Source: Kiritimatiellia bacterium | Lineage (GTDB): Bacteria > Verrucomicrobiota > Kiritimatiellia > SLAD01 | Assembly (NCBI GenBank): GCA_007136425.1 | Contig: SLGY01000135.1 | Span: 1-38,391 of the forward strand | DNA: 38,391 nt | Reading direction: 5' to 3' | In this document: positions 7,175-33,430 of the stretch, one piece after another | How the letters are laid out: each line of letters starts with the position of its first letter | Position numbering within the stretch: position 1 is the stretch's first letter | Notes under the pieces: generated by a model | What the model was told of the DNA's origin: nothing | Databases searched by the model: none | Seen by the model: the letters and a program-made list of their open reading frames with translations, nothing else | Translations under genes and position numbers: made by a program

Positions 7175-7198
7175 ACCATTCAACCATTCCGATATTCC
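7175..7198. repeat. Short 8-bp periodic tract just after the permease stop codon
   Basis: ACCATTCA ACCATTCC GATATTCC, starting 4 nt after the stop codon. Confidence 0.5.
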
Positions 7199-7226
7199 AA
7201 CAAGACCACACGAAAGGACAGCGCAC

Positions 7227-7469
7227 ATGAAACAGATCAAGATTCTCGGGACCGGATGCCCGAATTGCAATTCGTTGCAGGAAAACACGCAGGCGGCCGT
7301 GGCCGCGGCGGGTGTGGAGGCGCAGATTGAAAAAGTCGAAAAAATTACAGACATCATCGGCTATGGCGTGATGACCACGCCGGCGCTGGTCATCGACGGG
7401 AAAGTCAAGAGCGCGGGGAAGGTGCTGTCACCGGAACAGATTTCCGCGTTTCTCGCGGAGAACGCATAG
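7227..7469 (+). CDS. Thioredoxin-like small redox-active disulfide protein (MTH895/TM0996-like)
   Basis: MKQIKILGTGCPNCNSLQENTQAAV..YGVMTTPALVIDGKVKSAGKVLS; CPNC active site. Confidence 0.88.
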   Translation: MKQIKILGTGCPNCNSLQENTQAAVAAAGVEAQIEKVEKITDIIGYGVMTTPALVIDGKVKSAGKVLSPEQISAFLAENA

Positions 7470-7509
7470 TCCCGGCCGGTCGACTTCACGAGGAATCTCC
7501 GAACCCGGT

Positions 7510-7556
7510 TTGACACCGCCCCCCCATCGCGTCTATATTTCGCCACATAACGAAAT
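7510..7556 (+). promoter_or_regulatory. Candidate sigma70-type promoter with embedded inverted-repeat operator for arsR copy 2
   Basis: TTGACA (7510-7515), 18-bp spacer, TATATT (7534-7539); inverted repeat ATTTCG-N8-CGAAAT (7537-7556). Confidence 0.55.
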
Positions 7557-7962
7557 GAAAAACGCAAACCCATCACTGAAACTGGTCATGCGGGTGACCA
7601 AGGCGCTGGCGGACAGTCAACGCGTCCGCATCATGATGCTCCTGGAAGCAGGCGAGCTGTGTGTGTGCCAGATCGTCGAGGTGTTAGGGCTGGCCCCTTC
7701 CACCACGTCCAAACACCTGTCGATTCTGGAGGACGCAAATCTGATCGCGGGCCGGAAAGCGGGGCGCTGGATGTATTACCGGCTGACGTCCGGAACCGCG
7801 GGGGCGTGGGTGCGCCCGGTCCGCCAATGGATGCAGACGGCCTTGGCGGAAGACCCGCAGGTCGCGCAAGACCTCGGGAAATTAAGACGGGTGACGGCAT
7901 GTCCACCCGATGAATTGAGAAAGAAGCAGAGGAAGGATCTTCCGGGACACCCCGCTACATAG
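7555..7962 (+). CDS. ArsR-family regulator (copy 2)
   Basis: KALADSQRVRIMMLLEAGELCVCQIVEVLGLAPSTTSKHLSILEDANLIAGRKAGRWMYYRL; ELCVC motif. Confidence 0.9.
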   Translation: MKNANPSLKLVMRVTKALADSQRVRIMMLLEAGELCVCQIVEVLGLAPSTTSKHLSILEDANLIAGRKAGRWMYYRLTSGTAGAWVRPVRQWMQTALAEDPQVAQDLGKLRRVTACPPDELRKKQRKDLPGHPAT

Positions 7963-7976
7963 ACCAAGGAGCAAGG

Positions 7977-8420
7977 ATGAACAACAAACACAAGGTGGTG
8001 TTCCTCTGCACCGGCAATTCGTGCCGCAGTCAGATGGCGGAAGGCTGGGCGCGCCATTTGCGCGGCGACGAAATCGAGGCCTATTCCGCGGGGACGAATC
8101 CGCACGGGCTGAATCCGCTGGCGTCCAAGGTAATGGCGGAGGCGGGCGTGGATATTTCCGGTCACACGTCCAAGCATGTGGACGATCTCAAGGAGGTTGC
8201 CTTTGATCTGGCCGTGACGGTCTGTGATCGCGCGCATGAAACGTGTCCCCTCTTCCCCGGCGCAGCGCGAACCGTGCATCACAATTTCGACGACCCGCCG
8301 CGCCTGGCGGAGAACGCCCAAACGGAGGAGGAGGCGCTGAACCACTATCGCCGGGTACGCGATGAAATCAGGGATTTTATAGAGACGATGGACATACGAC
8401 GGAAGGAGAAGGCGGAATGA
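7977..8420 (+). CDS. arsC: Arsenate reductase, low-MW phosphatase fold
   Basis: [39 protein letters not shown]. Confidence 0.92.
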
Positions 8421-9607
8421 ATGATATGAGGGTAGACCCCGCAGACCGGAAGATGACCAGCGTGTTCGAACGCTACCTCACCGTTTGGGTGGGACTCTGT
8501 ATTGTGGGCGGGATCATACTCGGGCGGGTGGCGCCGGGATTTGCACAGACCTTGGACGGCTGGGCGATTGTCATTAATGACGCGCCGGTGGTATCCATCC
8601 CCATCGCGATCTGCCTGTTCTTCATGATGTACCCCATCATGGTTAAAATCGACTTCGCGTCGGTGATCAAGGCGGGCAAGAGCGGCAAGCCGGTCTTCCT
8701 GACCTTGTTCGTCAACTGGGCAATCAAGCCCTTCACGATGTATGCTATTTCCCTGTTCTTTCTGGGCTTCGTATTGCGCGGCTTGATCGGTACGGACGCA
8801 ACCGACCTGGTCAAGATGCCGTTCGGTCTCGATCTCCCGATCGGCTCGGAGCACGGCGCGGGCGTCGTGGTCCTGCACGAAGGGGTCAAGATGCTGGAGA
8901 TCCCGCTCTGGCGCAGTTACCTCGCAGGCTGTATTCTGCTCGGTATCGCGCCCTGCACCGCGATGGTGCTGGTCTGGGGCTATCTCTCGCGCGGCAACGC
9001 CGGACTGACTCTGGTCATGGTGGCCATCAATTCACTGACCATGCTTTTACTCTACGGGGTGCTTGGCGGATTCCTTTTGGGCGTAGGCCAACTTCCCGTC
9101 CCGTGGGAAGCCCTCCTGCTCTCCATCGGCATCTACGTGGCCCTGCCGCTGATTGCAGGCTATTTCTCGCGCGTATGGATCATCCGCGCCAAAGGCGTCG
9201 AATGGTTCACGGAAAAGTTCCTGCACGTCCTCACCCCCATCACCATTGTTGCCCTGCTGACCACGCTGGTCCTGTTGTTCAGTTTCAAGGGCGATGTGAT
9301 TGTGGAAAACCCGCTGACGATCCTCTGGATCGCGATTCCCCTCTTCATCCAAACGATGTTCGTCTTCTGGCTGGCCTACGGCGCAGCCAAGGCGATCAAG
9401 TTACGTTACGAAGACGCGGCGCCGGCGGCCATGATCGGGGCCTCAAACCATTTTGAGGTAGCCATCGCCACGGCCGTGATGCTGTTCGGTCTCGGATCCG
9501 GCGCCGCCCTCGCCACGGTGGTCGGCGTGTTGATCGAAGTGCCGTTGATGTTGTGGCTGGTGAAGATCTGTCTACGCACGAAACATTGGTTTCCCGCGAA
9601 CGCCTGA
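8417..9607 (+). CDS. acr3: ACR3-family arsenite efflux permease
   Basis: [66 protein letters not shown]. Confidence 0.93.
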
Positions 9608-9716
9608 ACGGACATAGCCCGTTGATAACCCTTGTTGGGCGCGCCATCCACCGCCAGACCCGCCAGCGGCGCGGGAAGCCGCGCCGCTCCATTCTGGTAG
9701 CCGACGTCGTGAGGCT

Positions 9717-9837
9717 GTGTTGATTTATTCGAAATCGCGTGGCGAAATCGGCACGCCGCAAGCGGCGGCCCTACAAGATCCTTTGGTCGTAGGGCTGTAG
9801 GGCCGTCGCTTGCGACGCGCCGGGAATGAATCAACAC
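9717..9837. repeat. Palindromic MITE/REP-like intergenic element, 121 bp
   Basis: Terminal inverted repeats GTGTTGATTTATTC / GAATGAATCAACAC (13/14) and internal arms GGCACGCCGCAAGCGGCGGCCCTAC / GTAGGGCCGTCGCTTGCGACGCGCC (22/25). Confidence 0.65.
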
Positions 9838-9892
9838 GCCCGTAAGACGGTGGACAGCTTTACCATTGGACATCGCCTCCACGCTGTTGCCC

Positions 9893-9929
9893 AAAAAAAC
9901 GCCCCGGCGCAGGGAACCCTGCGCGGGGC
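9893..9929 (-). terminator. Rho-independent terminator of the RRM gene
   Basis: Minus strand GCCCCGCGCAGGG-TT-CCCTGCGCCGGGGC followed by a 7-T run. Confidence 0.85.
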
Positions 9930-9953
9930 GAATGGATTGAGATAAGAGAACAA

Positions 9954-10214
9954 TCAGCGATTAGGACGGTCTTCGCGGGGACGGGCTTCATTGACCCGCA
10001 CTGCACGACCGGCAATGTCCTGGTTGTTCATCTCATCGATAGCCTTCTGACCTTCCTCGTTGCTCGGCATCTCGACGAAACCAAAACCACGGGAACGCCC
10101 GGTGAACTTATCCTTGATTACCTGCGCGGAAGAGACCTGACCAAACTTTTCGAAAGCCTCGCGCAGATCGTCATCACTTGCCTGGTAGGAAAGGTTTCCC
10201 ACATATATATTCAC
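9954..10214 (-). CDS. RNA-binding protein with single RRM (glycine-poor, cold-shock/Rbp-like)
   Basis: IYVGNL (RNP2) and RGFGFVEM (RNP1). Confidence 0.93.
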   Translation of the reverse strand: MNIYVGNLSYQASDDDLREAFEKFGQVSSAQVIKDKFTGRSRGFGFVEMPSNEEGQKAIDEMNNQDIAGRAVRVNEARPREDRPNR

Positions 10215-10391
10215 GAACGTACTCCTTCTTCAGCCGCACTCACCTCGCGAATCCTGAACCTGCAGCTCATGGCCCCATGGATTCGACTAACTATCGCGCA
10301 GAGTAGGACGTCAAATACGCCCGTGGCAAGCAGATTGTGAAATGTTTTTGGCGACGCTCCGGGCGGTTCCCGGCTCGATCCGGCCGGCACG

Positions 10392-11813
10392 CTAAATGTG
10401 CAGGCTCCGCTTGTGCACGCCCAACGCCGCCTCGTGTACCGCCTCGGACATGGTGGGATGCGCGTGTACGATACAGGCAAGATCCTCGGCGCTGGCCTTG
10501 TACTCCATGGCGACCACCGCTTCGGCGATCAATTCCGAGGCCGCCGCCCCGAAAATATGTACGCCGAGGATCTCGTCCGTCCCGGCGTCCGTGATGACCT
10601 TGACCAGGCCGACCGTCTCCTCCATGGCCAACGCCCGCCCGCTCGCGCGCATGGGAAACGTGCCCGACTGAAACTCGCGCGCCTCTTTCTTGAGCGCCTT
10701 CTCGGTCTTGCCCACCCAGGCGATTTCCGGCCACGTATAGATCACCCACGGAATCGTATCATGATTAACGCGCGTCTTCTTGCCGGCAATGCGCTCGGCC
10801 ACCATGATCCCTTCTTCCGAACCCTTGTGTGCAAGCATCGGTCCCCGTACCACATCCCCGATGGCGTAGATGTCCGGGATGTTCGTGCAGCAGAATTCGT
10901 CGACATGAATGTAGCCGCTTTCATCGACAAATAGATCCACTTCCGTCGAGTTCAATCCGTCCGTGTGCGGTTTTCGTCCCACGGCCACCACCAGCTTATC
11001 CACTTCCAGTTGGTGTTCGCCTTCGGCATCCTCGTAATCTACAACAACCCCCGCTCCCGACACATCGGCCTTGTTTACGCGCGCGCCGAGATGGATATCG
11101 AGCCCCTGCCGCTTGAACTCCTTCAGGGCCTCCGCGGCGATCTGTTCATCGGTCATGGCAAGAAAATCGTCCATGGCCTCCAGCACCACCACTTCCGCGC
11201 CGAGCCGGCTCCAGACCGAACCCAATTCCAGGCCGATCACGCCGGCGCCAATGACCCCCAACCGCTTCGGGACTTCTTTGAATTCAAGCGCACCGGTCGA
11301 ATCCACGACCTTCTCCTGATCGATCGTCAAATTCGGCAGCGTCCGCGGAACGGAACCGGTCGCAAGGATAATATGCTTGGCCTGAACGACCTCCTCCTCG
11401 CCTTCCCCCGCAACCGGCGAGACACGCACTTTCATGCCCAGCTCCAACCGGCCGTGCCCCTGCAACCAGGTGATCTTATTCTTCTTGAACAGACCCGCCA
11501 CGCCCTTGGTCAGGGTCGAAACGATCTTGTCCTTGCGCTCGATCATCTTCGACACATCCAGCGTCAACCCCGTTGCCGTGATCCCGTGCGAACCGAATTT
11601 ATGTTTTACCCGATGATAGTGCTCGGACGAATCCAGCAGCGCCTTGGAAGGAATGCAGCCGGCGTTTAGACAGGTCCCGCCCAGGGCATGTTTGCCGTCC
11701 TTGCCGACGTATTCGTCCACCAGCGCCGTGGACAGCCCCAGCTGCGCCGAACGGATCGCCGCCACGTAGCCCGCGGGTCCGCCCCCGATCACTACCACAT
11801 CAAATTCTTTCAT
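10392..11813 (-). CDS. lpdA: Dihydrolipoyl dehydrogenase (E3)
   Basis: FDVVVIGGGPAGYVAAIRSAQLG, GGTCLNAGCIPSKALL, HAHPTMSEAVHEAAL. Confidence 0.95.
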   Translation of the reverse strand: MKEFDVVVIGGGPAGYVAAIRSAQLGLSTALVDEYVGKDGKHALGGTCLNAGCIPSKALLDSSEHYHRVKHKFGSHGITATGLTLDVSKMIERKDKIVSTLTKGVAGLFKKNKITWLQGHGRLELGMKVRVSPVAGEGEEEVVQAKHIILATGSVPRTLPNLTIDQEKVVDSTGALEFKEVPKRLGVIGAGVIGLELGSVWSRLGAEVVVLEAMDDFLAMTDEQIAAEALKEFKRQGLDIHLGARVNKADVSGAGVVVDYEDAEGEHQLEVDKLVVAVGRKPHTDGLNSTEVDLFVDESGYIHVDEFCCTNIPDIYAIGDVVRGPMLAHKGSEEGIMVAERIAGKKTRVNHDTIPWVIYTWPEIAWVGKTEKALKKEAREFQSGTFPMRASGRALAMEETVGLVKVITDAGTDEILGVHIFGAAASELIAEAVVAMEYKASAEDLACIVHAHPTMSEAVHEAALGVHKRSLHI

Positions 11814-11833
11814 GACTGAATGCCTCCCTTCGC

Positions 11834-13225
11834 TCACAAATCCAGCAACATCCGCGCCGGATCCTCGAGGTTCTCCTTGATCGCCACCAAGAACTGCACG
11901 GCCTCCCGCCCGTCGATCAGACGGTGGTCATACGACAACGCGAGATACATCACGGGACGCACCACCACCTGCCCGTTTTCGGCCATCGGACGTTCCTCGA
12001 TCTTGTGCATCCCGAGAATGGCGCTCTGTGGCGGATTCAAAATGGGTGTGGACAACATCGATCCGAAAATACCGCCGTTCGTGATGCTGAACGTACCTCC
12101 CGTCAACTCTTCCAATCCCAATTTGCCCGCCTGCGCGCGGTTTGCAAAATCCGCGATATTCCGTTCGATATCGGAATAGGACTGTCGATCGGCGTCACGC
12201 AAGATCGGCACCACCAACCCGCGCTCGGTGCTGACGGCCACCCCGATGTCGAAGTAACCGTGATACACGATGTCCCCGCCGTCGAGTGTGGCATTGATCA
12301 CGGGGAACCGTTTCAACGCATCCACGGACGCCTTCACGAAAAACGACATGAACCCCAATTTGACCCCGCCGACCTTCTCAAACTCGTCCTTATACCGTTT
12401 CCGCAATTCGATTATCGGCTGCATGTTGACTTCGTTAAACGTCGTCAAAATCGCCGCCGTTTGTTGCGCCTCCACCAACCGCTCGGCAATACGCGCACGA
12501 ATACGCGAAAGCGGAACACGCTTTTCCGGACGCCCTTCCGCCACGCCGGAGATGCGCGGCGCCGGCGGCGCCGCTTCCGACTTCGTCGTTGTCTCGGGTT
12601 GTTTCTCTTCCGTTTCTTCCTCGACCGCACCGTCCGTCGGCGATTCCAGATATTGCAGGACGTCCGCCTTCGTGATCATACCGCCCCGTCCGGAACCCGG
12701 GATATCCGCAGGATCGAGGTCGTGCTCATCAATCAGGCGACGCACGGCGGGACTCAAACGCACCGGCTCGGTTTCGCGGCGTGCCGCCGATTCTTTCCCG
12801 GTACGCGCGGAGGAGTCCTTATCCGCATCCTCCTCCGGAGATGCCGCGTCGTCCGCGGTGTCCGTAGCCGGTCGCTCCGCCCGGACCGTTTCCTGTTCTT
12901 CCTCCGCGCCGGCCTCCGTGTCTTTCTTCGTCCCGGCATCCTTCTTATCTCTATCTTTCGAAGCGGATGACGGCTTCGAGCCCTCACCGCCGGATTCAAT
13001 CCGCGCAAGGAGCTGCCCCGCCTGAACCGTGTCCCCTTCCTTTACATCCAAGCCCGATAACACACCGGCTTCCGATGCGGACACTTCGAGCACAATCTTG
13101 TCCGTCTCAATATCCGCAATCTTTTCATCGCGTTCAACGGCGTCCCCCTCCTGCTTATGCCAGGCGGTCAGGGTCCCCTCCTCTACGGACTCGGGAAAGG
13201 GCGGAACTTTTACATCTGCGGACAT
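11834..13225 (-). CDS. sucB: Dihydrolipoyllysine succinyltransferase (2-oxoglutarate dehydrogenase E2)
   Basis: Lipoyl domain ([11 protein letters not shown]), E3-binding domain ([34 protein letters not shown]), catalytic domain ending [16 protein letters not shown]; adjacent to sucA. Confidence 0.94.
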
Positions 13226-13231
13226 CGGTAT

Positions 13232-16132: not shown

Positions 16133-16357
16133 ATCCTTTCACCCGCTTCGATCATGGCATATCAGGGATAACCCGATAAAATAACTGGGCACATTAGCAT
16201 TGAAATCAATTATTTGCACCAGATAAAAGAGACTTTTCGGACGCGTATTACGGCAAACGACGCCATCCCGCCGATTCCTCTTTACCCGGAGCAGTAGCCG
16301 TTTATACTGCGACGCGAACGGCTAATCCAGACCAATTACAAAAGGAGTTACACAAAA

Positions 16358-17365
16358 ATGAGCTACATCACCAACGACAAACTCGTCATTCTCGGCGCGG
16401 CGGGCGCGATCGGGTCCAACATGAGCCAGGCCGCCCTGACCCTGGGCCTGACGCCGAACGTTTGCATGTATGATCCGTTCGAAAAAGGCCTGCAAGGCGC
16501 CGCCGAAGAGATTTATCATTGCGCGTTTCCCGGCGCGCGCGTCACGTGGACCACGGACATCGCCGAAGCGTTGCAGGGCGCCAAATACCTCGTCTCTTCC
16601 GGCGGCGCGCCCCGCAAAGAAGGCATGACCCGGGAAGACCTGCTCAAGGGCAACGCGGAAATAGCCGCGCAGCTCGGGAAAGACATCAAAGCCCATGCCC
16701 CCGACTTGAAGTTCGGAGTCATCATCTTCAACCCGGCCGATATCACCGGACTGACGACCCTGGTTCATTCCGGACTGCCGCCCAGCGTAATCGGCACACT
16801 CGCCGCGCTCGACAGCACGCGCCTGCAAACCGCGCTCGCGCAGCATTTCGGCGTGGCGCAGGACGAGGTCACCGGTTGCCGCACCTATGGCGGGCACGGC
16901 GAAATGATGGCCGTCTTCGCCGGCGGCACCAAAGTCGCCGGCACGCCGCTCACGGACCTGATCGGCACGGACAAGCTCACCGATGAACAATGGGACGCGA
17001 TCAAGAAACATGTTCAACAGGGCGGCAAAAGAATCATTCAACTGCGCGGCCGTAGCTCGTTCCAGAGTCCGTCGCACCAGTCGCTGGTCATGGTTAAAGC
17101 GGTCATGGACGGCCAGGGCTATCCGTGGCCCTCGGGCATCTATGTCAACGACCAAGCCAACGGCTTCGAGAAGATCATGATGGCCATGGCGACCACCCTC
17201 GATCAAAACGGCCTTTCGGGCGCCATGCCCAAGGGCTCCGAAGCGGACATCGCCGCCCTGCGCGAATCGTATCAGCACCTCTGCAAGCTGCGCGATGAAG
17301 TCATCGAAATGGGCGTCCTCCCGCCGCTCGCCGAATGGGAACAGGTGAACCCGAACCTTAAGTAG
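16358..17365 (+). CDS. mdh: Malate dehydrogenase
   Basis: LVILGAAGAIGSNMSQAAL; SSGGAPRKEGMTREDLLKGNAEI; FNPADITGL; TYGGHGEMM. Confidence 0.88.
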   Translation: MSYITNDKLVILGAAGAIGSNMSQAALTLGLTPNVCMYDPFEKGLQGAAEEIYHCAFPGARVTWTTDIAEALQGAKYLVSSGGAPRKEGMTREDLLKGNAEIAAQLGKDIKAHAPDLKFGVIIFNPADITGLTTLVHSGLPPSVIGTLAALDSTRLQTALAQHFGVAQDEVTGCRTYGGHGEMMAVFAGGTKVAGTPLTDLIGTDKLTDEQWDAIKKHVQQGGKRIIQLRGRSSFQSPSHQSLVMVKAVMDGQGYPWPSGIYVNDQANGFEKIMMAMATTLDQNGLSGAMPKGSEADIAALRESYQHLCKLRDEVIEMGVLPPLAEWEQVNPNLK

Positions 17366-17422
17366 GAAGTAAGAAGTTAGAAGTAAGAAGTAAGAAGTAG
17401 TAAGTAGTAAGTGAGAAGTGGG
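17360..17422. repeat. Heptameric tandem repeat, 9 units of AAGTNNN, overlapping the mdh stop
   Basis: AAGTAGG AAGTAAG AAGTTAG AAGTAAG AAGTAAG AAGTAGT AAGTAGT AAGTGAG AAGTGGG read directly. Confidence 0.95.
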
Positions 17423-17457
17423 CCGTGGGCGGGAATATACCGTGCACGGCCCGCTTT
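17420..17457 (+). terminator. Terminator-like hairpin after mdh
   Basis: GGGCCGTG...CACGGCCC followed by GCTTTCGTTT (imperfect T tract). Confidence 0.45.
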
Positions 17458-17497
17458 CGTTTGAACAGAAGAGGGTTCAGCCATCTTTCGCTTCTGT

Positions 17498-18433
17498 TCA
17501 ATCCGCTTCGAATTCCGGCCGGCACAGTTCGTAGAAATTGCAACGGGCGCAGACATTGCGGTCAGGCGTCATGTCCCATTCCTCTTTCGGGCGCGGCTGA
17601 TTCTTCTTCGGATCGGCGTCTTCGAGATAATCGGCCATGTCGCGGGACGTCTCGACAATAAAAGCGCGCGCCTCGTCCAGCATCGCAGGCGTGACGACCT
17701 CCATGGCCACCTGTCCTTCGCGCAGATATTCAATGTAGACGCGGATGTTTTCCGGTGCGACCCCGTGCTTGAGATGCGCCCATAATCCGTAAACGGCCAA
17801 CTGTTTCATGTGATCGGAGCGCGGACGCCCCGCTTTCCAGTCGTGAATGTGCCAGGCGCCGTCCTGTTGATAGACATAATCGGGGATGGCATAGATCGTC
17901 AGTCCGTCGAGATCGAACGATTCCATGCGTTCCACACGCACCTCGTCTTCGGGGCGTACGCTGGCAAGCCTCGGGAGGACGGTATCCATGAAATTACGAA
18001 TGCACAGGCAGACCTGTTCCTTAAGCTGTTCCGGCCATTTGGGATCAAGCTCGGGATGCAAATCAGGATAGTAGTGTTCGTGCAGGCAGGTGTTGCGTTT
18101 GGGATCATCGCGCCACGCGCCGGATTTCGATTGTTTCCACCCTTCGTTGAGAAGCGGGCGCGCCGCGGTTTCGTAGGCGTCCTCGACGGTGTGCGTGCGG
18201 CCTTGCTGATGTTCGCGCAGAACCCAACGTACGGCCTCCTCCGAGGCGCGGCCCTGCAAGGTATGACGCGAATCCATCTTGTTCAGCCGGTACGCGGCAC
18301 GCGCGGTTTCGGGCGCGTTCCGATCCCAGCCGCCCCACGCGCCGTATTTGCTCCAGTATCGTTTGCGCCGGCACACTTCGAAATCAGACGCCGCGCTGAA
18401 GGACCAGGAGAAGGTGTTGATCAGTTCAGCCAT
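17498..18433 (-). CDS. PD-(D/E)XK nuclease, RecB/Cas4-like, with C-terminal Cys cluster
   Basis: IPDYVYQQDGAWHIHDWKAGRP (D..DWK) and C-terminal CARCNFYELC with an upstream Cys (RRKRYW..C context). Confidence 0.8.
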   Translation of the reverse strand: MAELINTFSWSFSAASDFEVCRRKRYWSKYGAWGGWDRNAPETARAAYRLNKMDSRHTLQGRASEEAVRWVLREHQQGRTHTVEDAYETAARPLLNEGWKQSKSGAWRDDPKRNTCLHEHYYPDLHPELDPKWPEQLKEQVCLCIRNFMDTVLPRLASVRPEDEVRVERMESFDLDGLTIYAIPDYVYQQDGAWHIHDWKAGRPRSDHMKQLAVYGLWAHLKHGVAPENIRVYIEYLREGQVAMEVVTPAMLDEARAFIVETSRDMADYLEDADPKKNQPRPKEEWDMTPDRNVCARCNFYELCRPEFEAD

Positions 18434-18468
18434 ACCGGGAGTGTGGCATAAACGGAGGGGGGAAGAAA

Positions 18469-18524
18469 GTGTTCAGTATTCAGTGTTCAGTGTTCAGTAT
18501 TCAGTGTTCAGTGTTCAGTGTTCA
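18469..18524. repeat. Heptameric tandem repeat, 8 units of GTRTTCA
   Basis: GTGTTCA GTATTCA GTGTTCA GTGTTCA GTATTCA GTGTTCA GTGTTCA GTGTTCA read directly. Confidence 0.97.
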
Positions 18525-18578
18525 GGTAGGGCGCTCGCTCCGCGAGCGGCGCGGCGGTGTGAGCCACGCCGCCCTACC
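18525..18578. repeat. REP-like palindromic element abutting the heptamer array
   Basis: GGTAGGGCG...CGCCCTACC ends with internal hairpin CTCGC-TCC-GCGAG; shares GTAGGGC/GCCCTAC with the 9717-9837 element. Confidence 0.6.
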
Positions 18579-19421: not shown

Positions 19422-20653
19422 AACACCTGCACTTTGATGTCATCGGCGGGGCGAGCGGCGACATGATTCTCGGCGCCCTGCTCGCACTCGGCGTGAACCC
19501 GGTCGTCATCGAGCACGCCCTTGCTTCGCTCGCCGTGGAAGGGGTACACCTCCATGTCGACCCGGCGGACGACCGTGGGATTCACGGCACACGGGTGATC
19601 GTACACGCACACGAAGCAACCGGCGCGCGCCATCATCATGATCATGATCACGGCGCCGGGGACGCGCACGACGCCACACCCCACAGGAATCTTGAAGATA
19701 TACGGAAGATCGTTGAATCTTCGCAGCTTCCTGACCCCGTCAAGGCCATGAGCCTGACCGTGTTCCGGCGCATCGGCGAAGCAGAGGCGAAAATTCACGG
19801 GACCACCGTGGACAAGATTCATTTTCATGAGGTCGGCGCGTTGGACTCGATCGCCGATATTGTCGGGAGCTGTCTCGGCCTTCATCTGTTGGGTGTGGGC
19901 GGGGTGTCCGTGTCCGCTCTGCCCGTGGGCCATGGCTCGATCGAGTGCGCGCACGGGACCTATCCGAATCCCGCCCCCGCCACGGTAGAACTATCCAAAG
20001 GGATGCCGGTCGTGTCCATCGACGAACCCCACGAATTGGTCACGCCTACCGGGGCGGCCCTGCTGTCCACGTGGAAAACCGCGGATACACCGCCGGCGGG
20101 CAGTCGCATCGAAAACTCCGGCTACAGCGTCGGCCATCGAACACTGAGCCGTCGCCCGAACGTCCTGCGCGCAGTATTGCACGACACGTCCGACACCCGA
20201 CACGCCACACCCGACTCCGTCCTGGTGCTCGAATGCAATCTCGACGACATGACCCCGGAACTCGTCGGCGCGCTGACCGAACGTCTCCTGGCGGACGGCG
20301 CGCTGGACGCATTCATCACCCCGGTCCAAATGAAAAAACAGCGGCCCGGCATGCTATTGACCGTATTGAGTCGTCCGGAAGATCGCGAAAAGATGCTGGA
20401 CCTGATCTTTGCCGAGTCCACGACGTTCGGAGTACGTGAACGGGCCATGCAGCGAACGGTCCTCGAACGGCGCACGGATACGGTGGACACTCCGTACGGT
20501 GCGGTACGCGTAAAGATCGGACGCTGGAAGGAGAGGGACGTCACACGCGCCCCGGAAATGGACGACTGCATCGCGCGCGCCCGCGAACACGGCGTCGCCG
20601 CCCGCACGGTGTACCAAGCGGCCGCAACTGCAGCGCAGCAGGACTCTTGTTAA
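19418..20653 (+). CDS. larC: Nickel-pincer cofactor biosynthesis protein LarC (nickel insertion)
   Basis: HFDVIGGASGDMILGALLALG, His-rich HHHDHDHGAGDAHD, VLECNLDDMTPELVGALTERLLADGALDAFITPVQMKKQRPGMLLTVL; 4-bp overlap with larB. Confidence 0.94.
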   Translation: MKHLHFDVIGGASGDMILGALLALGVNPVVIEHALASLAVEGVHLHVDPADDRGIHGTRVIVHAHEATGARHHHDHDHGAGDAHDATPHRNLEDIRKIVESSQLPDPVKAMSLTVFRRIGEAEAKIHGTTVDKIHFHEVGALDSIADIVGSCLGLHLLGVGGVSVSALPVGHGSIECAHGTYPNPAPATVELSKGMPVVSIDEPHELVTPTGAALLSTWKTADTPPAGSRIENSGYSVGHRTLSRRPNVLRAVLHDTSDTRHATPDSVLVLECNLDDMTPELVGALTERLLADGALDAFITPVQMKKQRPGMLLTVLSRPEDREKMLDLIFAESTTFGVRERAMQRTVLERRTDTVDTPYGAVRVKIGRWKERDVTRAPEMDDCIARAREHGVAARTVYQAAATAAQQDSC

Positions 20654-20688: not shown

Positions 20689-21750
20689 GTGGCGACCGAA
20701 CTGGTGATTGGTCCGGAAGCAAAAAAGCCGCTAGTGCTGAAGATCCCGCTGTTCGTATCGGATATGAGTTTTGGCGCGCTATCCGAGGAGGCGAAGATTG
20801 CCCTGGCGCGGGGCGCTGAATTGGCCGGCACAGGCATTTGTTCCGGTGAAGGCGGTATGCTTCCGGAAGAACAGGCGGAGAATTCCCGCTACTTGTACGA
20901 GCTGGCGAGTGCGAAGTTTGGCTACGCCGAAGACCTGTTGGAAAAGGTGCAAGCTTTTCACTTCAAAGGGGGGCAGGGAGCCAAGACCGGTACCGGCGGT
21001 CACTTACCCGCCAACAAGAACGTCGGCAAGATATCCAGTGTACGGAAGATCAAGGAGGGGCAACCGGCGGTTTCGCCGCCCACCTTCGCCGACCTGAACA
21101 CGGTAGAAGATTTTCGCGCCTTCGGCGAGCGCGTGCGGGAAGTTAGCGGCGGCATTCCGATCGGATTCAAGCTGAGCGCGAATCATATCGAGCAGGATAT
21201 TCAGTTCGCGTTGGATGCGGGCGCCGACTACATCATTCTCGACGGGCGCGGCGGCGGAACCGGCGCGGCGCCGGCCATATTCCGGGACCACATCAGCGTG
21301 CCCTCCATTCCGGCGTTGGCGAGAGCGCGACGCTATCTCGACCAGCAAGGGGCGAGCGGCCGGGTGACTCTGATCATCACGGGCGGCTTGCGTGTGCCGA
21401 TCGATTTCGTGAAGGCCATGGCCTTGGGTGCGGACGGCATTGCCCTGGCCAACAGCGCCATGCAGGCGATCGGCTGTGTCGCCGCCCGCATCTGCAATAC
21501 CAACAATTGCCCGGCGGGCATCGCTACTCAAAAGCGGGATTTACGTCAACGACTCAAGGCCGATAAGTCCGCCAAACAATTGCACAACTTCTTTAACGCA
21601 TCGGTGGCTCTTATGCAGGTCATGGCGCGGGCATGCGGACACGATGCTTTGAGCAAGTTCAACCCCAACGACTTGGCCACTTGGCATCGGGACATGGCGC
21701 GCTTGTCCGGAGTGAAGTATGCGGGAGTCGGGGAGCTGGGTGATCGGTGA
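20689..21750 (+). CDS. Glutamate synthase large-subunit-like FMN/Fe-S domain protein, apparently N-terminally truncated
   Basis: PLFVSDMSFGALSEEAKIALARGAELAGTGICSGEGG; CVAARICNTNNC (C-x5-C-x4-C); in-frame TAA at 20665 leaves almost no N-terminal region; GTG start used in the track. Confidence 0.7.
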   Translation: MATELVIGPEAKKPLVLKIPLFVSDMSFGALSEEAKIALARGAELAGTGICSGEGGMLPEEQAENSRYLYELASAKFGYAEDLLEKVQAFHFKGGQGAKTGTGGHLPANKNVGKISSVRKIKEGQPAVSPPTFADLNTVEDFRAFGERVREVSGGIPIGFKLSANHIEQDIQFALDAGADYIILDGRGGGTGAAPAIFRDHISVPSIPALARARRYLDQQGASGRVTLIITGGLRVPIDFVKAMALGADGIALANSAMQAIGCVAARICNTNNCPAGIATQKRDLRQRLKADKSAKQLHNFFNASVALMQVMARACGHDALSKFNPNDLATWHRDMARLSGVKYAGVGELGDR

Positions 21751-21793
21751 CCGGTGTCCGGGGCAGGTTTTGGTTTTCGGTTGTAGGTTTTAG
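21739..21793. repeat. Degenerate heptad tract overlapping the stop codon of the glutamate-synthase-like ORF
   Basis: GGTGATC GGTGACC GGTGTCC GGGGCA GGTTTT GGTTTTC GGTTGTA GGTTTTA. Confidence 0.7.
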
Positions 21794-22255: not shown

Positions 22256-22286
22256 CGCAAAGAGGCGCAAGAAAGCGCAAAGCGAG
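22256..22286. repeat. 10-bp periodic tract (CGCAARRRRG-like x3)
   Basis: CGCAAAGAGG CGCAAGAAAG CGCAAAGCGA. Confidence 0.6.
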
Positions 22287-22295
22287 AGTCGCAAT

Positions 22296-22595: not shown

Positions 22596-22768
22596 TCCGC
22601 CACGGATGACAACCCGGACGGTCGAGTAAGTGGGGCGACTAAGGGGAGCCGATTAAGTGTGGCAGTACCCGGTTATGCGTTCGGATTGCTTTTCGACGAC
22701 GAAACGGGTAACGTGTTTCGTACAATGAAGAATAACCTTATATGTCTAAATGATCTGGAATCAGTCTG

Positions 22769-24889: not shown

Positions 24890-24995
24890 AGCGTGCCCGT
24901 CAGCGGATCGCTGCCCCTCCCAGGCACATCGCCACACCCTTTCGTTCTCTTTCGACCCGCGCAGGGCCTCCCGGGCCGAAAGCATTTTCCCCATC

Positions 24996-26015: not shown

Positions 26016-26123
26016 GGGTTCTCCTCCTCTTGTTATCGATGACATCTCATACTGGCGCAGAAAATGACGCCAAGCTAAGACATGGTCCTCTTCCGGCACG
26101 CAAGGGCCGCGTTCAATGCACGC

Positions 26124-26987: not shown

Positions 26988-26998
26988 AACAACCTCCT

Positions 26999-28258
26999 CT
27001 ATTCTTCCAGCCGGAAATTGGCCCAAGAATTATTTGGGATGGGCGTAGACTCGATCACCGGCCCATAGGTGTCGTCCAAGGATGTAACAAACGGCTCACC
27101 AAGAACGGAGTTACCTGTGACCACGATGCCCTCGCTGTCATCCATGCGTAGGCCCAGGTCGGTTCCTCCTGACACATGGTTGCCTTGGACCGCGCCGCCA
27201 ATCACCTCTTCAATCCATATGTTGCGTCTAAAATTGCCAAAGAGCACATTGTTTTTAACAAAAGCATTTTCGACCATTTCGTTTTCAGAAATGTCGCCCG
27301 GGAAGACAACCCCGCCTATCAGCGTACTGTTGTCTGATACAACATTGCCGAGGATGCGGGTTCCGCTAATGAGGCCGGGGCCTCCCGTGAGGATACCCGC
27401 ATTTGAATGGCCATGGATCACGTTGTTGATGATCGATGTGTTTCTAATTGTTCCATCCGCGCTAACCCTCAGATAGAAGCCGCGCCCATCATTGTCCATG
27501 AATGTGTTGTCCCGGAATTGATTGCCTCGAAACGTTGACGCGGAAGACCACACGTAAACACCGTAGCGTCCCGTCGTCCCCTCGTCTGTGCCATTGCCGA
27601 CAACGGTGCAACCACTGATTTGATTATCCAACATCGCACTATCGCTCGAAATCAGCATATAAGCTCCATTATAGGCATTGCGAGCAATCACAGAGTCCTC
27701 AATCCGGTTGCCTGTGATCTCTCCTTCGAGTTGCGCTGAAAACCAAATGCCGTCTTGACCATTGTTTGCGATGAGGCAATCACGGATCACGTTCCCCGCC
27801 ACGAGCTGGCCGGCCCCGGAGGCCCGCAAATAAAATCCTCGCCCGGTCATATCGCGCACACGCAACCGCTCATAAACCCCGTTGCGACTGCCCTCGAGTT
27901 GCACGCCGGTTTCAAATTCCTCAATTGCCCCATTGCGGACCACTGTGTTTTCCACGCCGGATGCAACAAAGATGCCCACCAAGTCGGTCCCTGAAAGGGT
28001 GAAGCCCATCAGGTCAACCGTCACGTTATCCGCCTCAATCGTGATCCCGCCGTCGGCACCGGCGTCCAGGTTGCCCGTTAAATAATAAGAACCCGGCTCA
28101 TCAATCGTGATCGGAACGGATTCAATGGGCGTTCGCGACTCCAATTCGTCCAGTGCACGCATCGTGACATCCGGCGGTCCCGGCGGTGACAAAGGCCCCT
28201 GCGCATGGGTGGTAATAGCGAACACTAACGCGGCACCTATGATAATAAATCGTTTCAT
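26999..28258 (-). CDS. Secreted right-handed parallel beta-helix protein (paralog 1)
   Basis: Signal peptide, QGPLSPPGPPDVTMRALDELESRTPIESVPITIDEPGSYYLTGNL then NxI/GN beta-helix repeats; AGGAGG RBS. Confidence 0.87.
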   Translation of the reverse strand: MKRFIIIGAALVFAITTHAQGPLSPPGPPDVTMRALDELESRTPIESVPITIDEPGSYYLTGNLDAGADGGITIEADNVTVDLMGFTLSGTDLVGIFVASGVENTVVRNGAIEEFETGVQLEGSRNGVYERLRVRDMTGRGFYLRASGAGQLVAGNVIRDCLIANNGQDGIWFSAQLEGEITGNRIEDSVIARNAYNGAYMLISSDSAMLDNQISGCTVVGNGTDEGTTGRYGVYVWSSASTFRGNQFRDNTFMDNDGRGFYLRVSADGTIRNTSIINNVIHGHSNAGILTGGPGLISGTRILGNVVSDNSTLIGGVVFPGDISENEMVENAFVKNNVLFGNFRRNIWIEEVIGGAVQGNHVSGGTDLGLRMDDSEGIVVTGNSVLGEPFVTSLDDTYGPVIESTPIPNNSWANFRLEE

Positions 28259-28283
28259 GGTCATTCCTCCTTATAGGTCACAT

Positions 28284-29519
28284 TCAGCGACTGAAATTGG
28301 CCCACGCGTTCGGATTGCTCAGTTCCCCCGGTGTGCTGATGACCGGAGCATCCAGATTACCCGTCCCGGCCGAAAACGGCGTGTCGTTATCGAGAGAGAT
28401 ATTGCGAAAAACAAAGGCGCTGGTGGACCCGATGTTGTAACCGGTACCATGCCCGGCGACTCTATTCCCCTCAATGCGTGTACCCTCCGTGCCACCGAAC
28501 AGGCGAATCCCGTCGTTCCCGTTCTGCACCACATACGAATCGCGGATCAAATTGCCTTGTGCTGTTCCGCCTGCGGACGCATTCAGGTAGACACCGAACC
28601 CGTTGTTCTCAGCAATGTGATTGCCGAGCAGCTTGTTTCCATTGGCATGGCCGCCCAGAATTCCTTGAACAGACAAGCCAATGTTACTGTTGCGCATGAT
28701 CTGGGTGTCGCGGACAAAATTACCGACGGCTTCCGAATCGTTTCCAGAGGCGACGATGCGCAGGCCATCATTTGTATTGTCGACAATCGTCAGCCCGGCA
28801 ACAAGATTTCCATTGCATCTTCCACCATCCTCACTGGAGAGATTCACTCCTCGCAATCCTGAGCCGGACACCACGCAGTCACGAATGATGTTTCCCGAGG
28901 CGAGCCCGGCATCTCCTAACAAATGAATGCCAGCTTGTCCGTTGTCTGAAATGATCGAATCCAAGATCATGTTGCCGTTCACGGTACCGGCGGCCGCCCG
29001 GATGAGAATGCCTTCGTCTCCGTTGCCCGTCACCCGCAACTGCGACAACACATTGCCGTTGGCTTCATCGCCGTCACCGATGATCAGGATCCCCTCCGCG
29101 CTGTTATCTTTGATCGCCAAGTCCTCGAAACGGTTGTAGCTTCGGCCAGTAAGCAACAGCCCCGTCTCGAATCCTCGAATCGTTCCATTTCGGACCTCCA
29201 CGTCATGGCCCAAAACGATCACTCCAATGTTGCCACCCGATCCGGCCAGGGTATGACCTTGCAGATCGATGGTCACCGAATCGACCTCCACGGTAATGCC
29301 GTTGAGACCCGTGCTCAGACTTTCCGTGACGATGTACGAACCCGATTCTGAGATGGTGTAAGGTAATTCGTCGATCGGCGTGCGCGGCTCGATCTGGTCC
29401 AGCGACTTCATCGTTTCCGCCGGTCCGCTGTCCGGTTGCAACGGGCCTTGCGCCCAGGCCGTGGGCCCCGCCAACAAGGCGCACAGCAAAAGACAGTACG
29501 GGCGTGTAAGAGATTGCAT
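28284..29519 (-). CDS. Secreted right-handed parallel beta-helix protein (paralog 2)
   Basis: Signal peptide, QGPLQPDSGPAETMKSLDQIEPRTPIDELPYTISESGSYIVTESL then GNxI repeats; start at MQSLTR with GGAGG RBS. Confidence 0.87.
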   Translation of the reverse strand: MQSLTRPYCLLLCALLAGPTAWAQGPLQPDSGPAETMKSLDQIEPRTPIDELPYTISESGSYIVTESLSTGLNGITVEVDSVTIDLQGHTLAGSGGNIGVIVLGHDVEVRNGTIRGFETGLLLTGRSYNRFEDLAIKDNSAEGILIIGDGDEANGNVLSQLRVTGNGDEGILIRAAAGTVNGNMILDSIISDNGQAGIHLLGDAGLASGNIIRDCVVSGSGLRGVNLSSEDGGRCNGNLVAGLTIVDNTNDGLRIVASGNDSEAVGNFVRDTQIMRNSNIGLSVQGILGGHANGNKLLGNHIAENNGFGVYLNASAGGTAQGNLIRDSYVVQNGNDGIRLFGGTEGTRIEGNRVAGHGTGYNIGSTSAFVFRNISLDNDTPFSAGTGNLDAPVISTPGELSNPNAWANFSR

Positions 29520-29554
29520 ATTACTCCTCCCTGTTCTAAAGCGCGCAACGGGGT

Positions 29555-29602
29555 TTCCAATCATTGGAACGACTTCTCACGTCTTTTCCCAATCGTTGGA
29601 AA
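29555..29602. promoter_or_regulatory. Paired short palindromes upstream of beta-helix paralog 2
   Basis: TTCCAA-TCA-TTGGAA (29555-29569) and TTTCCCAATCGTTGGAAA (29585-29602), centres about 32 bp apart. Confidence 0.5.
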
Positions 29603-29682
29603 GGCCGTGCGCATTCTCCTTATGTTCGCAAGCCGTAGCAATTGTAGGGAGGCTTACATTTATGTCAAGAAGGCAGGCAGGA

Positions 29683-30246
29683 TCAATTCGCCCAGGAAAG
29701 GATGTCCCGGTCCGTATCGGATCGACGATCGCTCCCGAAAGACCACGCAACCACACCGACACCGGTTTGATTCCGGTAGATGGTCTGGGTCATCGTGCAG
29801 ACGTTGTTCATGTCGGTATCCAGCACGATCTGATAGGGCGACCCCCATGGGTCGACAAAACGGCCCGTCTCCGTCACGCCCGAACGGCCGCGTCCGCGAT
29901 AGCCCACGTCGACGTATTCAATACGGTCCGGATTCAGGCGGTGCCCCTCATTTCCGGGTCCGTCGATCGCGCGCAGTATATTCATAACCAATTCATTACC
30001 CGCCTCGCGGCCATAGCGCACGTCCCCCGCCGTTCCCATGTGCGGCGAAGGCCAATACCCGTAATCGAAAAAGAACCGTTCACTGGCCGAAACCAGCATA
30101 TCCAAATCCGCGCGCGTCATGGCCTCGCGGCGATCGGATTCCACGGTTACCCAGACCGGGATAATGATCGAAAGCACGATCAGCAGGACGCCGCCGCCAA
30201 TCAGCTTCTCGGCCTTCGAAAAAGGCTGTTTCCTGTTCTCGCTCAT
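29683..30246 (-). CDS. Pseudopilin-like (GspG-like) membrane-anchored protein
   Basis: N-terminal TM helix followed by TRADLDMLVSASERFFFDYGYWPSP..GRFVDPWGSPYQIVLDTDMNN..VVAWSFGSDRRSDTDRDILSW, typical of GspG-like C-terminal domains. Confidence 0.72.
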   Translation of the reverse strand: MSENRKQPFSKAEKLIGGGVLLIVLSIIIPVWVTVESDRREAMTRADLDMLVSASERFFFDYGYWPSPHMGTAGDVRYGREAGNELVMNILRAIDGPGNEGHRLNPDRIEYVDVGYRGRGRSGVTETGRFVDPWGSPYQIVLDTDMNNVCTMTQTIYRNQTGVGVVAWSFGSDRRSDTDRDILSWAN

Positions 30247-30263
30247 TTCAGATTCCGAAGAGG

Positions 30264-30337
30264 AACCGCGAATAGACGCGAATGAACACGAATAAGGAGC
30301 TGTATAAATTTGCGTCCATTCGCGTTCATTCGCGGTT
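30264..30337. repeat. Imperfect inverted repeat made of 10-bp periodic sequence
   Basis: AACCGCGAATAGACGCGAATGAACACGAAT (30264-30293), 14-nt loop, ATTTGCGTCCATTCGCGTTCATTCGCGGTT (30308-30337); 25/30 complementary. Confidence 0.85.
30308..30337. repeat. 30-bp direct repeat, copy A
   Basis: ATTTGCGTCCATTCGCGTTCATTCGCGGTT, identical to 30722-30751. Confidence 0.97.
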
Positions 30338-30723
30338 TAGTCTTGCTGAAGCACCACCCGCTTCCACTCCAGCTTCGCTCTTTTGAAGTTTAGAATCAGA
30401 CCGACCGGCAACTTCGAGATCTTGAGATAATTGAGCATTTGCCCCAATTCGTGATCACCGATGGATTCAACAACTTTCGTATCAACAACCACCTTGTCAT
30501 AGGCAATGAGATCAGGGACATAGTCTCCCACTCGAACACCCTTGTAAACTATATCGAACCGCTCCTGTTGCCTGACAGGGATTCCTCGCAATTCGAATTC
30601 CACGACGAGCGCGTTTTCGTAAGGTTTCTCCAATAAACCGTGCCCCAGCGTATTCAAGACCTCAAACGCACAGTTCACCACTTCATAGACTTCCTGTTTA
30701 AGAAGCAGGCTCTTGTCATTCAT
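30337..30723 (-). CDS. GxxExxY family protein
   Basis: EVYEVVNCAFEVLNTLGHGLLEKPYENALVVEFELRGIPVRQQERFDIVYKGVRVGDYVPDLIAYDKVVVDTKVV; GxxExxY variant GLLEKPY. Confidence 0.92.
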   Translation of the reverse strand: MNDKSLLLKQEVYEVVNCAFEVLNTLGHGLLEKPYENALVVEFELRGIPVRQQERFDIVYKGVRVGDYVPDLIAYDKVVVDTKVVESIGDHELGQMLNYLKISKLPVGLILNFKRAKLEWKRVVLQQD

Positions 30724-30751
30724 TTGCGTCCATTCGCGTTCATTCGCGGTT
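30722..30751. repeat. 30-bp direct repeat, copy B, directly after the alaS stop
   Basis: Exact match to 30308-30337. Confidence 0.97.
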
Positions 30752-33376
30752 CTACGACTTGTCCAACAGATCGGGTACGGCGGCGATGGCTTCCGGCACT
30801 TTCGTAGCGTCCTTCCCGCCGGCCTGCGCCATGTTCGGACGCCCCCCGCCACCGCCGCCGGCGATCTTGGCCACCTGCCCGATGAGTTTGCCCGCATGCA
30901 GACCGCGCGTAACGAGGTCGTCGCTGACCGACGCCACGAAGGCCGCTTTGCCCTCGGACGCGCCGCCCAGCACGATCACACCCGACTTCATGGCCGGACG
31001 GATTTGATCAAGCACGGCGCGTAACCCTTCCACGCCCTGCCCCTCCACCACGTCCGCAATGAGCGGCACGGCGCCCACGGTTTGTTGTTTCTGCAGCAGT
31101 GCGCCCGCCACGTCCTTATTGGCCGCGGCCGCCTGTTCCTTGAGCGCTCGTTCCAATTTCTTGTTCTGCTCGATCAGGGATTCGACACGTTTGAGCAACT
31201 CATCAGGCGGCGCACTGAAACGCTGCGCCAGGCTGCGTACCAGATTGTGCTCGCGTTGGGTCCACTCGTAAGCGGGCCAACCGCAGACGGCTTCGATGCG
31301 CCGAATCCCGGCGGCCACCGCACTTTCGCTGACAATGCGAAAGAAACCCAATTGCCCCGTCTCGCGCACATGCGTCCCGCCGCACAGCTCCCGGCTGAAT
31401 CCGCCGATATCCACCACCCGCACTTCATCGCCGTACTTCTCATCGAAGACCGCGATGATCCCCGAATCCGGCACCTCTTTGTAGGGCATGGTATAGGTCC
31501 GCACCGGAGTATCTTCCATGATCCATTGGTTCACCCGATGTTCGATGGCTTCCAGTTTCTCGGGCGTCACGGCCTCATAATGCGTAAAATCGAAACGCAA
31601 CCGGTCGGGCGCAACGAGCGAACCCGCCTGACGCGCCGTCGCGCTGACCAATTCGCGCAGCGCGGCATTGAGCAAATGCGTGGCGGTATGATGATGCTGC
31701 ACGTGGGCCCGACGCTCGTCGTCCACGACGGCGCCGACCGGGTCCCCGACGGTAAAGCGACCCTGTACCACCTTGCCGATATGTAACACCATGCCCTCCA
31801 CCGGACGTTGCGTGTCCCAGACCTCGAATTCGCCGTCCGGGCCCCGGATACTTCCGTGATCGCCCAATTGCCCGCCGGCCTCGGCATAAAAAGGCGTCTC
31901 GGCCAGGATCAGCTCGGCGGCTTCGCCCGTGTCGAGCGCGGTCTTGCGTTCCCCGGCGGAAAGGATGGCCGTCAGTTTGGTTTGTTTTTCCAAAGCGCGA
32001 TAGCCGTCGAATACCGTACGTACCCCTTCCGCGTGCAGTTCCTGAATCGACTCCGCGTCTTCGGTCATGGCGGCATCCTTCCGATCAAGCCGCGCCCGCT
32101 CGCGTTGTTGTTCCATCAAGGCTTCGAAGCGTTCGTGATCGACCGAGAGATTCTGTTCCGCCGCCATCAATGTCGTAAGGTCCGCCGGGAAGCCGTAGGT
32201 ATCATACAGCTTGAATGCCTGATCGCCGGGAAAGATCGTTTGGTTGTCCTTCTTCAACTCGGCTACAACCTCCTCGAACAGCGACATGCCGCGATCCAGC
32301 GTGGCCGCGAAACTGTCCTCTTCCGCCTGCAACGCGCGCAAGACGCGTTCGCGATTCCGGCGCAGCTCGGGAAAGATATCGCCCATCACTTCCTCGACGA
32401 CGGGAAACAAATCGCCCAGAAACGGCTTGGTCAAATTAAGGGTACGACCGTACCGCGCGGCGCGGCGCAAGAGTCGGCGCAACACGTATCCACGCCCGTC
32501 GTTGGACGGCAGGACGCCGTCGGAAATCGCAATGGACAAAGCACGCACGTGATCGGCGATAACGCGCATGGCCACGGCCGCCTCCCCCTCGTACGGGCAG
32601 CCCGACATGCGTTTGAGTTCGTTCACGTAGGGCGTGAACACGTCCGACTCATAATTGGAGTTCTTGCCCTGCAACACCGCGGCCACCCGCTCAAATCCCA
32701 TCCCGGTATCGACATGTTTCGACGGCAACTCTTCCAACGAGCCGTCGCCTTTACGGTTATACTGAATGAACACCAGGTTCCAGAGTTCGATCACGTCCGG
32801 CGATCCGGCATTGACCATTTCCGGGCCGCACCCGTCCGCGCTGATATCGATATGGATTTCGGAACAGGGTCCGCAGGGCCCTGTTTCGCCCATCTCCCAG
32901 AAATTATCCTTTTCGTCGAAGCGCAGGATGTGCTTGGGGTGAATGTCGGTCACTTCTTTCCACAACTTCTCAGCTTCGTCGTCGTCCTTGTACACCGTGG
33001 CCCAAAGCCGCTCCTTGGGCAGCGCCCACACGTCGGTCAACAATTCCCAGGCCCAGGCGATGGCCTCCCGTTTGTAGTAGTCACCGAAAGACCAGTTCCC
33101 GAGCATTTCAAAGAAGGTATGGTGATACGTGTCGCGCCCGACTTCCTCCAGATCGTTATGCTTGCCGCTCACGCGAATACATTTTTGCGTGTTCGCCACC
33201 CGCCGGTCCCGGCTTTCGCGGGTGCCAAGAAAGATGTCCTTAAACTGGTTCATGCCCGAGTTGGTAAACAACAGGGTGGGATCCGTCGGCAAGACCACCG
33301 GCGAACTGGGAACGATGGCGTGCTCTTTGGATTTGAAAAAGTCCAGAAACGATTGTCGTATTTCGGTTGATGTCAT
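30752..33376 (-). CDS. alaS: Alanyl-tRNA synthetase
   Basis: MTSTEIRQSFLDFFKSKEHAIVPSSPVVLPTDPTLLFTNSGMNQFKDIFLG; HHTATHLLNAALRELV; CGGTHVRETGQLG. Start could also be 33394. Confidence 0.96.
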   Translation of the reverse strand: MTSTEIRQSFLDFFKSKEHAIVPSSPVVLPTDPTLLFTNSGMNQFKDIFLGTRESRDRRVANTQKCIRVSGKHNDLEEVGRDTYHHTFFEMLGNWSFGDYYKREAIAWAWELLTDVWALPKERLWATVYKDDDEAEKLWKEVTDIHPKHILRFDEKDNFWEMGETGPCGPCSEIHIDISADGCGPEMVNAGSPDVIELWNLVFIQYNRKGDGSLEELPSKHVDTGMGFERVAAVLQGKNSNYESDVFTPYVNELKRMSGCPYEGEAAVAMRVIADHVRALSIAISDGVLPSNDGRGYVLRRLLRRAARYGRTLNLTKPFLGDLFPVVEEVMGDIFPELRRNRERVLRALQAEEDSFAATLDRGMSLFEEVVAELKKDNQTIFPGDQAFKLYDTYGFPADLTTLMAAEQNLSVDHERFEALMEQQRERARLDRKDAAMTEDAESIQELHAEGVRTVFDGYRALEKQTKLTAILSAGERKTALDTGEAAELILAETPFYAEAGGQLGDHGSIRGPDGEFEVWDTQRPVEGMVLHIGKVVQGRFTVGDPVGAVVDDERRAHVQHHHTATHLLNAALRELVSATARQAGSLVAPDRLRFDFTHYEAVTPEKLEAIEHRVNQWIMEDTPVRTYTMPYKEVPDSGIIAVFDEKYGDEVRVVDIGGFSRELCGGTHVRETGQLGFFRIVSESAVAAGIRRIEAVCGWPAYEWTQREHNLVRSLAQRFSAPPDELLKRVESLIEQNKKLERALKEQAAAANKDVAGALLQKQQTVGAVPLIADVVEGQGVEGLRAVLDQIRPAMKSGVIVLGGASEGKAAFVASVSDDLVTRGLHAGKLIGQVAKIAGGGGGGRPNMAQAGGKDATKVPEAIAAVPDLLDKS

Positions 33377-33394
33377 TACTTTACGCGTATTCAT

Positions 33395-33430
33395 GGGATT
33401 CAGGATGCAAGGATTTGGGAGGCAAGGCAA
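33395..33430. repeat. Degenerate 7/8-bp periodic tract upstream of alaS
   Basis: GGGATTCAGGATGCAAGGATTTGGGAGGCAAGGC: GGA at 33396, 33103-type spacing 7/8/7 (33396, 33403, 33411, 33418). Confidence 0.45.

Follow-up and report, generated by a model that had tools for sequence, protein, structure and literature searches.

We analyzed a 38,391-nt stretch of DNA (in the following, the window; positions 1 to 38,391 of contig SLGY01000135.1, Kiritimatiellia bacterium, assembly GCA_007136425.1), which carries short-period repeat tracts at gene borders and, directly behind alaS, a very small element made up of one gene and flanking arrays of short repeat units. A first-pass annotation had listed eight such tracts, and all eight tract sequences were found. 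When their periodicity scores were compared with dinucleotide shuffles of the window, the description as real periodic repeats held for four of them, which lie far above chance level. These are two period-7 tracts at 17360–17430 (score 36.5) and 18468–18525 (score 41) and two period-10 tracts at 30308–30334 (score 12, with 0.05 expected per window in shuffles) and 30721–30748 (score 13, with 0 expected). The tract at 21731–21761 is borderline (score 11.5, with about 0.15 expected), and behind it, at 21768–21793, lies another weak 7-bp run. The periodicity of the other three stays within chance, namely 22256–22286 (score 7.5, 10.7 expected), 7175–7198 (score 7, 23 expected) and 33395–33430 (score 5, at least 77 expected).

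The two period-10 tracts are parts of a 488-bp element (30264–30751, minus strand) that occupies the space between alaS and the next gene. The alaS stop codon on the minus strand (30752–30754) is TAG, and the 5′ terminal triad AACCGCGAATGAACGCGAATGGACGCAAAT (30722–30751, minus strand) begins at the next base. This triad leads into a gene of 128 aa (30337–30723, minus strand), the ATG of which overlaps the end of the 5′ triad, while the TAA overlaps the start of an inner 3′ triad (30308–30337, minus strand). The inner 3′ triad is a 30-mer identical to the 5′ triad and in direct orientation. On the minus strand, this second 30-mer is followed by a short spacer and then by an outer 3′ triad, AACCGCGAATAGACGCGAATGAACACGAATA, in inverted orientation (30264–30294, plus strand), which ends in CGCGGTT. 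The two 3′ triads pair with each other and fold as a DNA hairpin (–20.2 kcal/mol, z –5.3).

The product of the gene matches TIGR04256, the GxxExxY family (E = 5.9e-38, 129.8 bits at a cut-off of 35), and PF13366, PDDEXK_3 (E = 3.3e-35, 121.4 bits at a cut-off of 22). G28, E31 and Y34 of the GxxExxY motif are invariant, D70 and K82 of the PD-(D/E)XK signature are nearly invariant, and the window protein contains PD..DTK. Its AlphaFold2 model shows a PD-(D/E)XK fold (predicted local distance difference test score 94.9), for which LHK-Exo and Cas4 are the nearest solved folds. From fold and motif, the GxxExxY protein is a putative nuclease, and it has its fold and catalytic signature in common with Cas4, lambda-type exonucleases, Rpn and other PD-(D/E)XK nucleases. 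To our knowledge, flanking short-period inverted arrays have not been described for any of these. No DDE transposase is present inside the 488-bp element, in which the PDDEXK_3 gene is the only gene.

Inverted arrays at GxxExxY loci

The source genome contains five GxxExxY genes, four of which carry triads on both sides, each with a unit of its own; the exception is a distant homologue. Genome-wide counts, which cover 886 kb of the 2.6 Mb, yielded 38 CRCNRAK triads (three heptamers spaced 1–4 bp), whereas the shuffles contained 1.0 and the reversed sequence none. In order to quantify the flanking arrays, 111 GxxExxY loci were collected, 33 from the source genome and its class relatives and 78 usable ones from named genomes across many phyla, archaea among them. 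The best inverted match of the left against the right flank was scored, with flanks swapped between loci (cross-pairs) and control spans of the same loci as controls. The median score was 17.5 at the GxxExxY loci compared to 8.0 for cross-pairs and 8.5 for control spans (p ~1e-46), and a score of at least 16 was reached by 63% of the loci but only by 2% of the cross-pairs and 0.6% of the control spans. Among the class relatives, 85% of the GxxExxY loci reached this score; of the PIN-domain genes from the same relatives, 0 of 30 did. The flank period is 8–10 bp, and the triads that enclose the gene are locus-specific and occur as inverted copies.

Proteins of the window clade, with 60–75% identity to that of the window, come from Planctomycetota, Acidobacteriota, Verrucomicrobiota, Hydrogenedentota, Bacteroidota, Myxococcales and Desulfobulbaceae, and the ends of the loci of this clade are nearly all of the AACCACGGATGAACACGGAT / AACCACGGATGAACACGGATGGACACGGAT type. 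On a tree of 110 GxxExxY proteins, two unit types were distinguished, CRCNRAT (mostly 10 bp) and CRCNRAG (mostly 8–9 bp). The unit type changes only 2 times on this tree, compared to 17.2 times with shuffled labels, and none of 500 shuffles gave a value as low. Thus, the unit type follows the protein clade across phyla, a pattern that slippage at broken ends would not yield. These loci constitute a first family, in which a GxxExxY (PDDEXK_3) protein is combined with triads of an 8–10-bp unit with the core CRCNRAK, and the window element at 30264–30751 belongs to it. Carriage of GxxExxY by phages or plasmids found little support, with 5 loci in viral contigs and 8 of 72,556 plasmid records. A composite arrangement was observed on contig C206 (L057), where a GxxExxY gene has complete inverted pairs on each side; the same arrangement is present in the same-genus genome G002 after alaS.

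S23 genes and the 7-bp arrays

The two strong heptad tracts of the window consist of the units AAGTAAG (17360–17430, unstranded, including the mdh stop codon) and AGTGTTC (18468–18525, unstranded). Several heptad arrays of the genome form inverted pairs. As a candidate for the gene that accompanies them, the S23 or 23S-rRNA intervening-sequence protein (PF05635, a four-helix bundle) was tested. On contig C171, an S23 gene is enclosed by inverted AAGTAAG/AAGTGAG arrays, which have the unit of the tract at 17360, and in G002 an S23 gene is enclosed by AGTGTTC and GAACACT arrays, which have the unit of the tract at 18468. The S23 copy on C171 lies between glmS and murA and not within 23S rRNA. 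Strong inverted flanks with a score of at least 16 were found at 62% of 32 S23 loci, and periodic S23 flanks have a period of 7 bp in 25 of 34 cases and of 8 bp in 7 more. S23 genes with 7-bp arrays thus make up a second family. Since the window contains no S23 gene, its 7-bp arrays are gene-less copies, and those at 17360 and 18468 belong to this family as members without a gene. The assignment of all tracts to a single family was rejected, as the 7-bp and the 8–10-bp classes accompany different genes. The common character that had been ascribed to the tracts applies to the strong ones, which do share an architecture, but they fall into two classes and three of the eight are due to chance or at best a relic.

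Within the 886 kb, 39 period-7 arrays with a score of at least 12 were counted; in the first 420 kb, there are 19 with a score of at least 13, compared to 0 in shuffles. The array units recur at several loci each, both in the source genome and in its relatives. The earlier statement that the tracts do not represent one dispersed repeat is misleading in that each unit is itself dispersed. The proposed placement at gene ends was borne out by a check of the distances to stop codons: 13 of 23 non-coding 7-bp arrays have a stop codon within 15 bp, whereas 17% would be expected if intergenic positions were drawn at random (p = 2e-5, with a crude ORF (open reading frame) caller).

Two further observations concern the heptad arrays. 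A PDDEXK_1 / Cas4-like gene of 311 aa (17498–18433) stands alone between the tracts at 17360 and 18468. The possibility that these two arrays represent the ends of an element around this gene was rejected, as their units differ and are not inverted copies. AGTGTTC arrays were also found within about 50 bases of the contig start on ten contigs of G003 (C1, C71, C98, C111, C112, C122, C125, C141, C158 and C194) and on contig C154 of G004, so that metagenome assemblies seem to be interrupted by such arrays.

Occupied and empty junctions in related genomes

Comparison of tract presence across related genomes, as had been suggested, gave occupied and empty sites at syntenic junctions. Behind alaS, an element is present in G001, which is of the same genus (left end only, where the contig ends), and in G002, and it is absent in G003–G006 and in G008, where the homologous next gene follows directly. 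The plsY–gpsA junction holds a GxxExxY element in G000, where the gene is broken, and in G002; it is empty in G005, in which the two genes overlap by 4 nt, and the element is likewise absent in G003, G004, G007 and G008. In G001, the same junction carries a different, gene-less hairpin. In the element on contig C50, the GxxExxY gene is broken and the arrays are retained, and the plsY frame of the occupied junction now ends in repeat-encoded residues (L294, contig C50: GTTEGAEEHGGRNGTE). Similar tails of repeat-encoded residues in other places may have arisen in the same way. At the glmS–murA junction, an S23 element is present in G000 and G002, murA follows straight on in G006 and G008, and G004 has a single 10-bp-type tract. 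The array copy number differs between the orthologous S23 elements of G000 and G002.

One junction was followed within genus g13, where G055 has a GxxExxY element, G018 a gene-less heptad pair, G033 a decayed right end and G044 no element. The ends of the G055 element (about 60 bp) occur as dozens of dispersed copies in G018. Taken together with the clade-linked 10-bp units described above, the relatives that lack tracts at intact junctions lend no support to the inference of the first-pass annotation that patterned repeats may be generated or tolerated at points of gene breakage or joining. As the only cause, slippage at broken genes was rejected in view of the clade-linked units, the dispersal and the empty sites.

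In G018 and G033 (L358, L359–L374), several array families share the same intergenic gaps, including heptads, CACAAAGGA and CAGATT-type ends, as if such gaps were hot spots of repeated insertion. The G018 copies have the inner palindrome GGGCGTGCTACCGCACGC and AGGACTGCCAG in common.

Proposed mode of spread, alternatives and remaining tracts

We consider it likely that the significant tracts are the cis-acting parts of two families of very small elements resembling REPIN-RAYT systems, each with one short gene within inverted arrays and with many gene-less copies in gaps at gene ends. As for the mechanism of spread, we infer by analogy with REPIN-RAYT that the protein would recognize its own cognate arrays, probably as DNA (or RNA) hairpins, and would cut the recognized arrays or help to copy them. 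Repair or copying could then seed gene-less copies in short, tolerated gaps just after stop codons. Hairpin-templated copying would preserve the likeness of both arms within an element, even as units drift from one element to the next. For S23, a route via a reverse transcriptase is conceivable, given the likeness of PF05635 to Avd, the accessory protein of diversity-generating retroelements that is required for retrohoming (PMC10053308). In difference to these retroelements, no reverse transcriptase, template repeat or variable repeat was noticed beside the inspected elements, in an inspection that was not a search aimed at them.

REPIN-RAYT systems consist of doublets of repetitive extragenic palindromic (REP) sequences together with a TnpA-REP Y1 transposase (Bertels and Rainey, 2011; PMC3116915). 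Like them, the elements described here comprise a gene flanked by cognate short repeats and gene-less inverted doublets that form hairpins and are dispersed extragenically. The repeat class is also tied to the gene class, clearly for GxxExxY and weakly for S23 (p 0.10). They differ in that the protein is a PD-(D/E)XK nuclease-like protein or an Avd-like helix bundle instead of a Y1/HUH transposase, and in that the ends are short-period arrays and not one palindrome. Because the defining Y1 transposase is absent, the system of the window is not a member of REPIN-RAYT. The S23 elements are furthermore reminiscent of the intervening sequence (IVS) in Coxiella 23S rRNA, in which tandem heptamers precede the S23p ORF in numbers that vary between strains, a 28-bp inverted repeat ends the IVS, and which its authors call a selfish element (PMC4990558). 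The PF05635 protein, the inverted termini and the heptamers of variable copy number before the ORF are common to both, but the elements described here lie between protein genes, have 7-bp arrays on both sides, and their units also occur as gene-less dispersed arrays. Arrays of the heptamer TAACTGA have been reported from Beggiatoaceae, Cyanobacteria and Bacteroidetes, with no evident mechanism and no mention of S23 (PMC4679880). These, too, are 7-bp intergenic arrays near gene borders with a patchy, apparently horizontal distribution, whereas the heptads described here have other units and are tied to S23 genes.

Several points weigh against mobile elements driven by their own proteins. Transposition, cleavage or binding was not observed. 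No target-site duplication was recognizable, the syntenic genomes being too diverged in the gaps, and clear inverted ends are missing at about one quarter of the named GxxExxY loci. For S23, the unit correlates only weakly with the protein clade (rho 0.10, p 0.10). Gene-less arrays far outnumber the genes, with 39 heptad arrays in 886 kb compared to 3 S23 hits in the genome, an excess that other causes of array dispersal could explain as well. Most of the genomes are metagenome-assembled, so that single contigs may be mis-binned.

The surplus of gene-less pairs and solo arrays over gene-bearing ones would also agree with genes and array ends that are passive cargo, the array pairs being similar to miniature inverted-repeat transposable elements or REP sequences, moved by an unrelated transposase, and having captured GxxExxY and S23 as accessory genes. 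The retention of arrays next to the broken gene of the C50 element points in the same direction. We nevertheless regard this as unlikely, as arrays in many phyla enclose these same two gene families time and again but never PIN genes, and the unit type follows the GxxExxY clade. Still less probable is a regulatory role of the arrays as RNA or DNA hairpins at gene ends, acting on transcript ends, mRNA stability or translational control, with selection and not mobility maintaining them. The strong folding and the position just after stop codons are consistent with such a function, and MacGregor proposes a regulatory role for the TAACTGA heptamers (PMC4679880), but relatives with the same gene order have no arrays, or arrays of a different family, at the same junctions, and many arrays are solo and thus unable to form a hairpin. 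Growth of the arrays on the spot, through replication slippage together with hairpin-templated copying near any gene that was inserted or broken, which comes near to the idea of the first-pass annotation, appears very improbable to us. Copy numbers do vary between the orthologous S23 elements of G000 and G002 and between Coxiella strains (PMC4990558), and the two arms within an element resemble each other. However, the same units occur at many separate loci, and these matches at unlinked loci already point to homology by dispersal. The unit type is common to a protein clade across phyla, and no such arrays are seen at PIN genes of the same genomes. Slippage may act as a tuner of array copy number.

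The findings link two common but functionally uncharacterized proteins, GxxExxY and S23, to specific cis-sequences, and short-period repeats at gene ends thereby become a testable protein–DNA system. This provides a candidate mechanism for heptamer arrays without a known mechanism of spread (PMC4679880) and would add a nuclease-only or Avd-like route to short-repeat movement in prokaryotes. More tentatively, with the odds slightly against it, GxxExxY elements could represent a widespread, undescribed class of mobile repeats, in which a stand-alone PD-(D/E)XK nuclease recognizes and spreads short-period palindromic ends in bacteria and archaea without a transposase, with an S23/Avd-like family doing likewise with heptads. 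In that case, the S23/heptad system would also account for the long-noted heptanucleotide repeats of environmental genomes. The S23 part extends a known element; the GxxExxY part has a real chance of being a new kind. In the literature search, which left most subscription papers outside, GxxExxY appeared only in two incidental mentions, its arrays were undescribed, and PDDEXK_3 gave no result. The family of GxxExxY elements, found across many phyla, has apparently not been described before.

Of the weaker tracts, the one at 21731–21793 (unstranded) covers the stop codon of a glutamate-synthase-like ORF and is probably also a gene-less, decayed 7-bp array of the S23-type class, with the units GGTGACC / GGTTTTN; similar units occur elsewhere in the genome. 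The tract at 22256–22286 (unstranded) is at best a relic, possibly of a CGCAAAG-type triad, and those at 7175 and 33395 are due to chance. A short 7-bp run of CGACACC, a unit family that is common in the genome, lies within the larC coding sequence at 20182–20218, and a stand-alone DUF5615 / PIN-like gene is located at 34663–35022.

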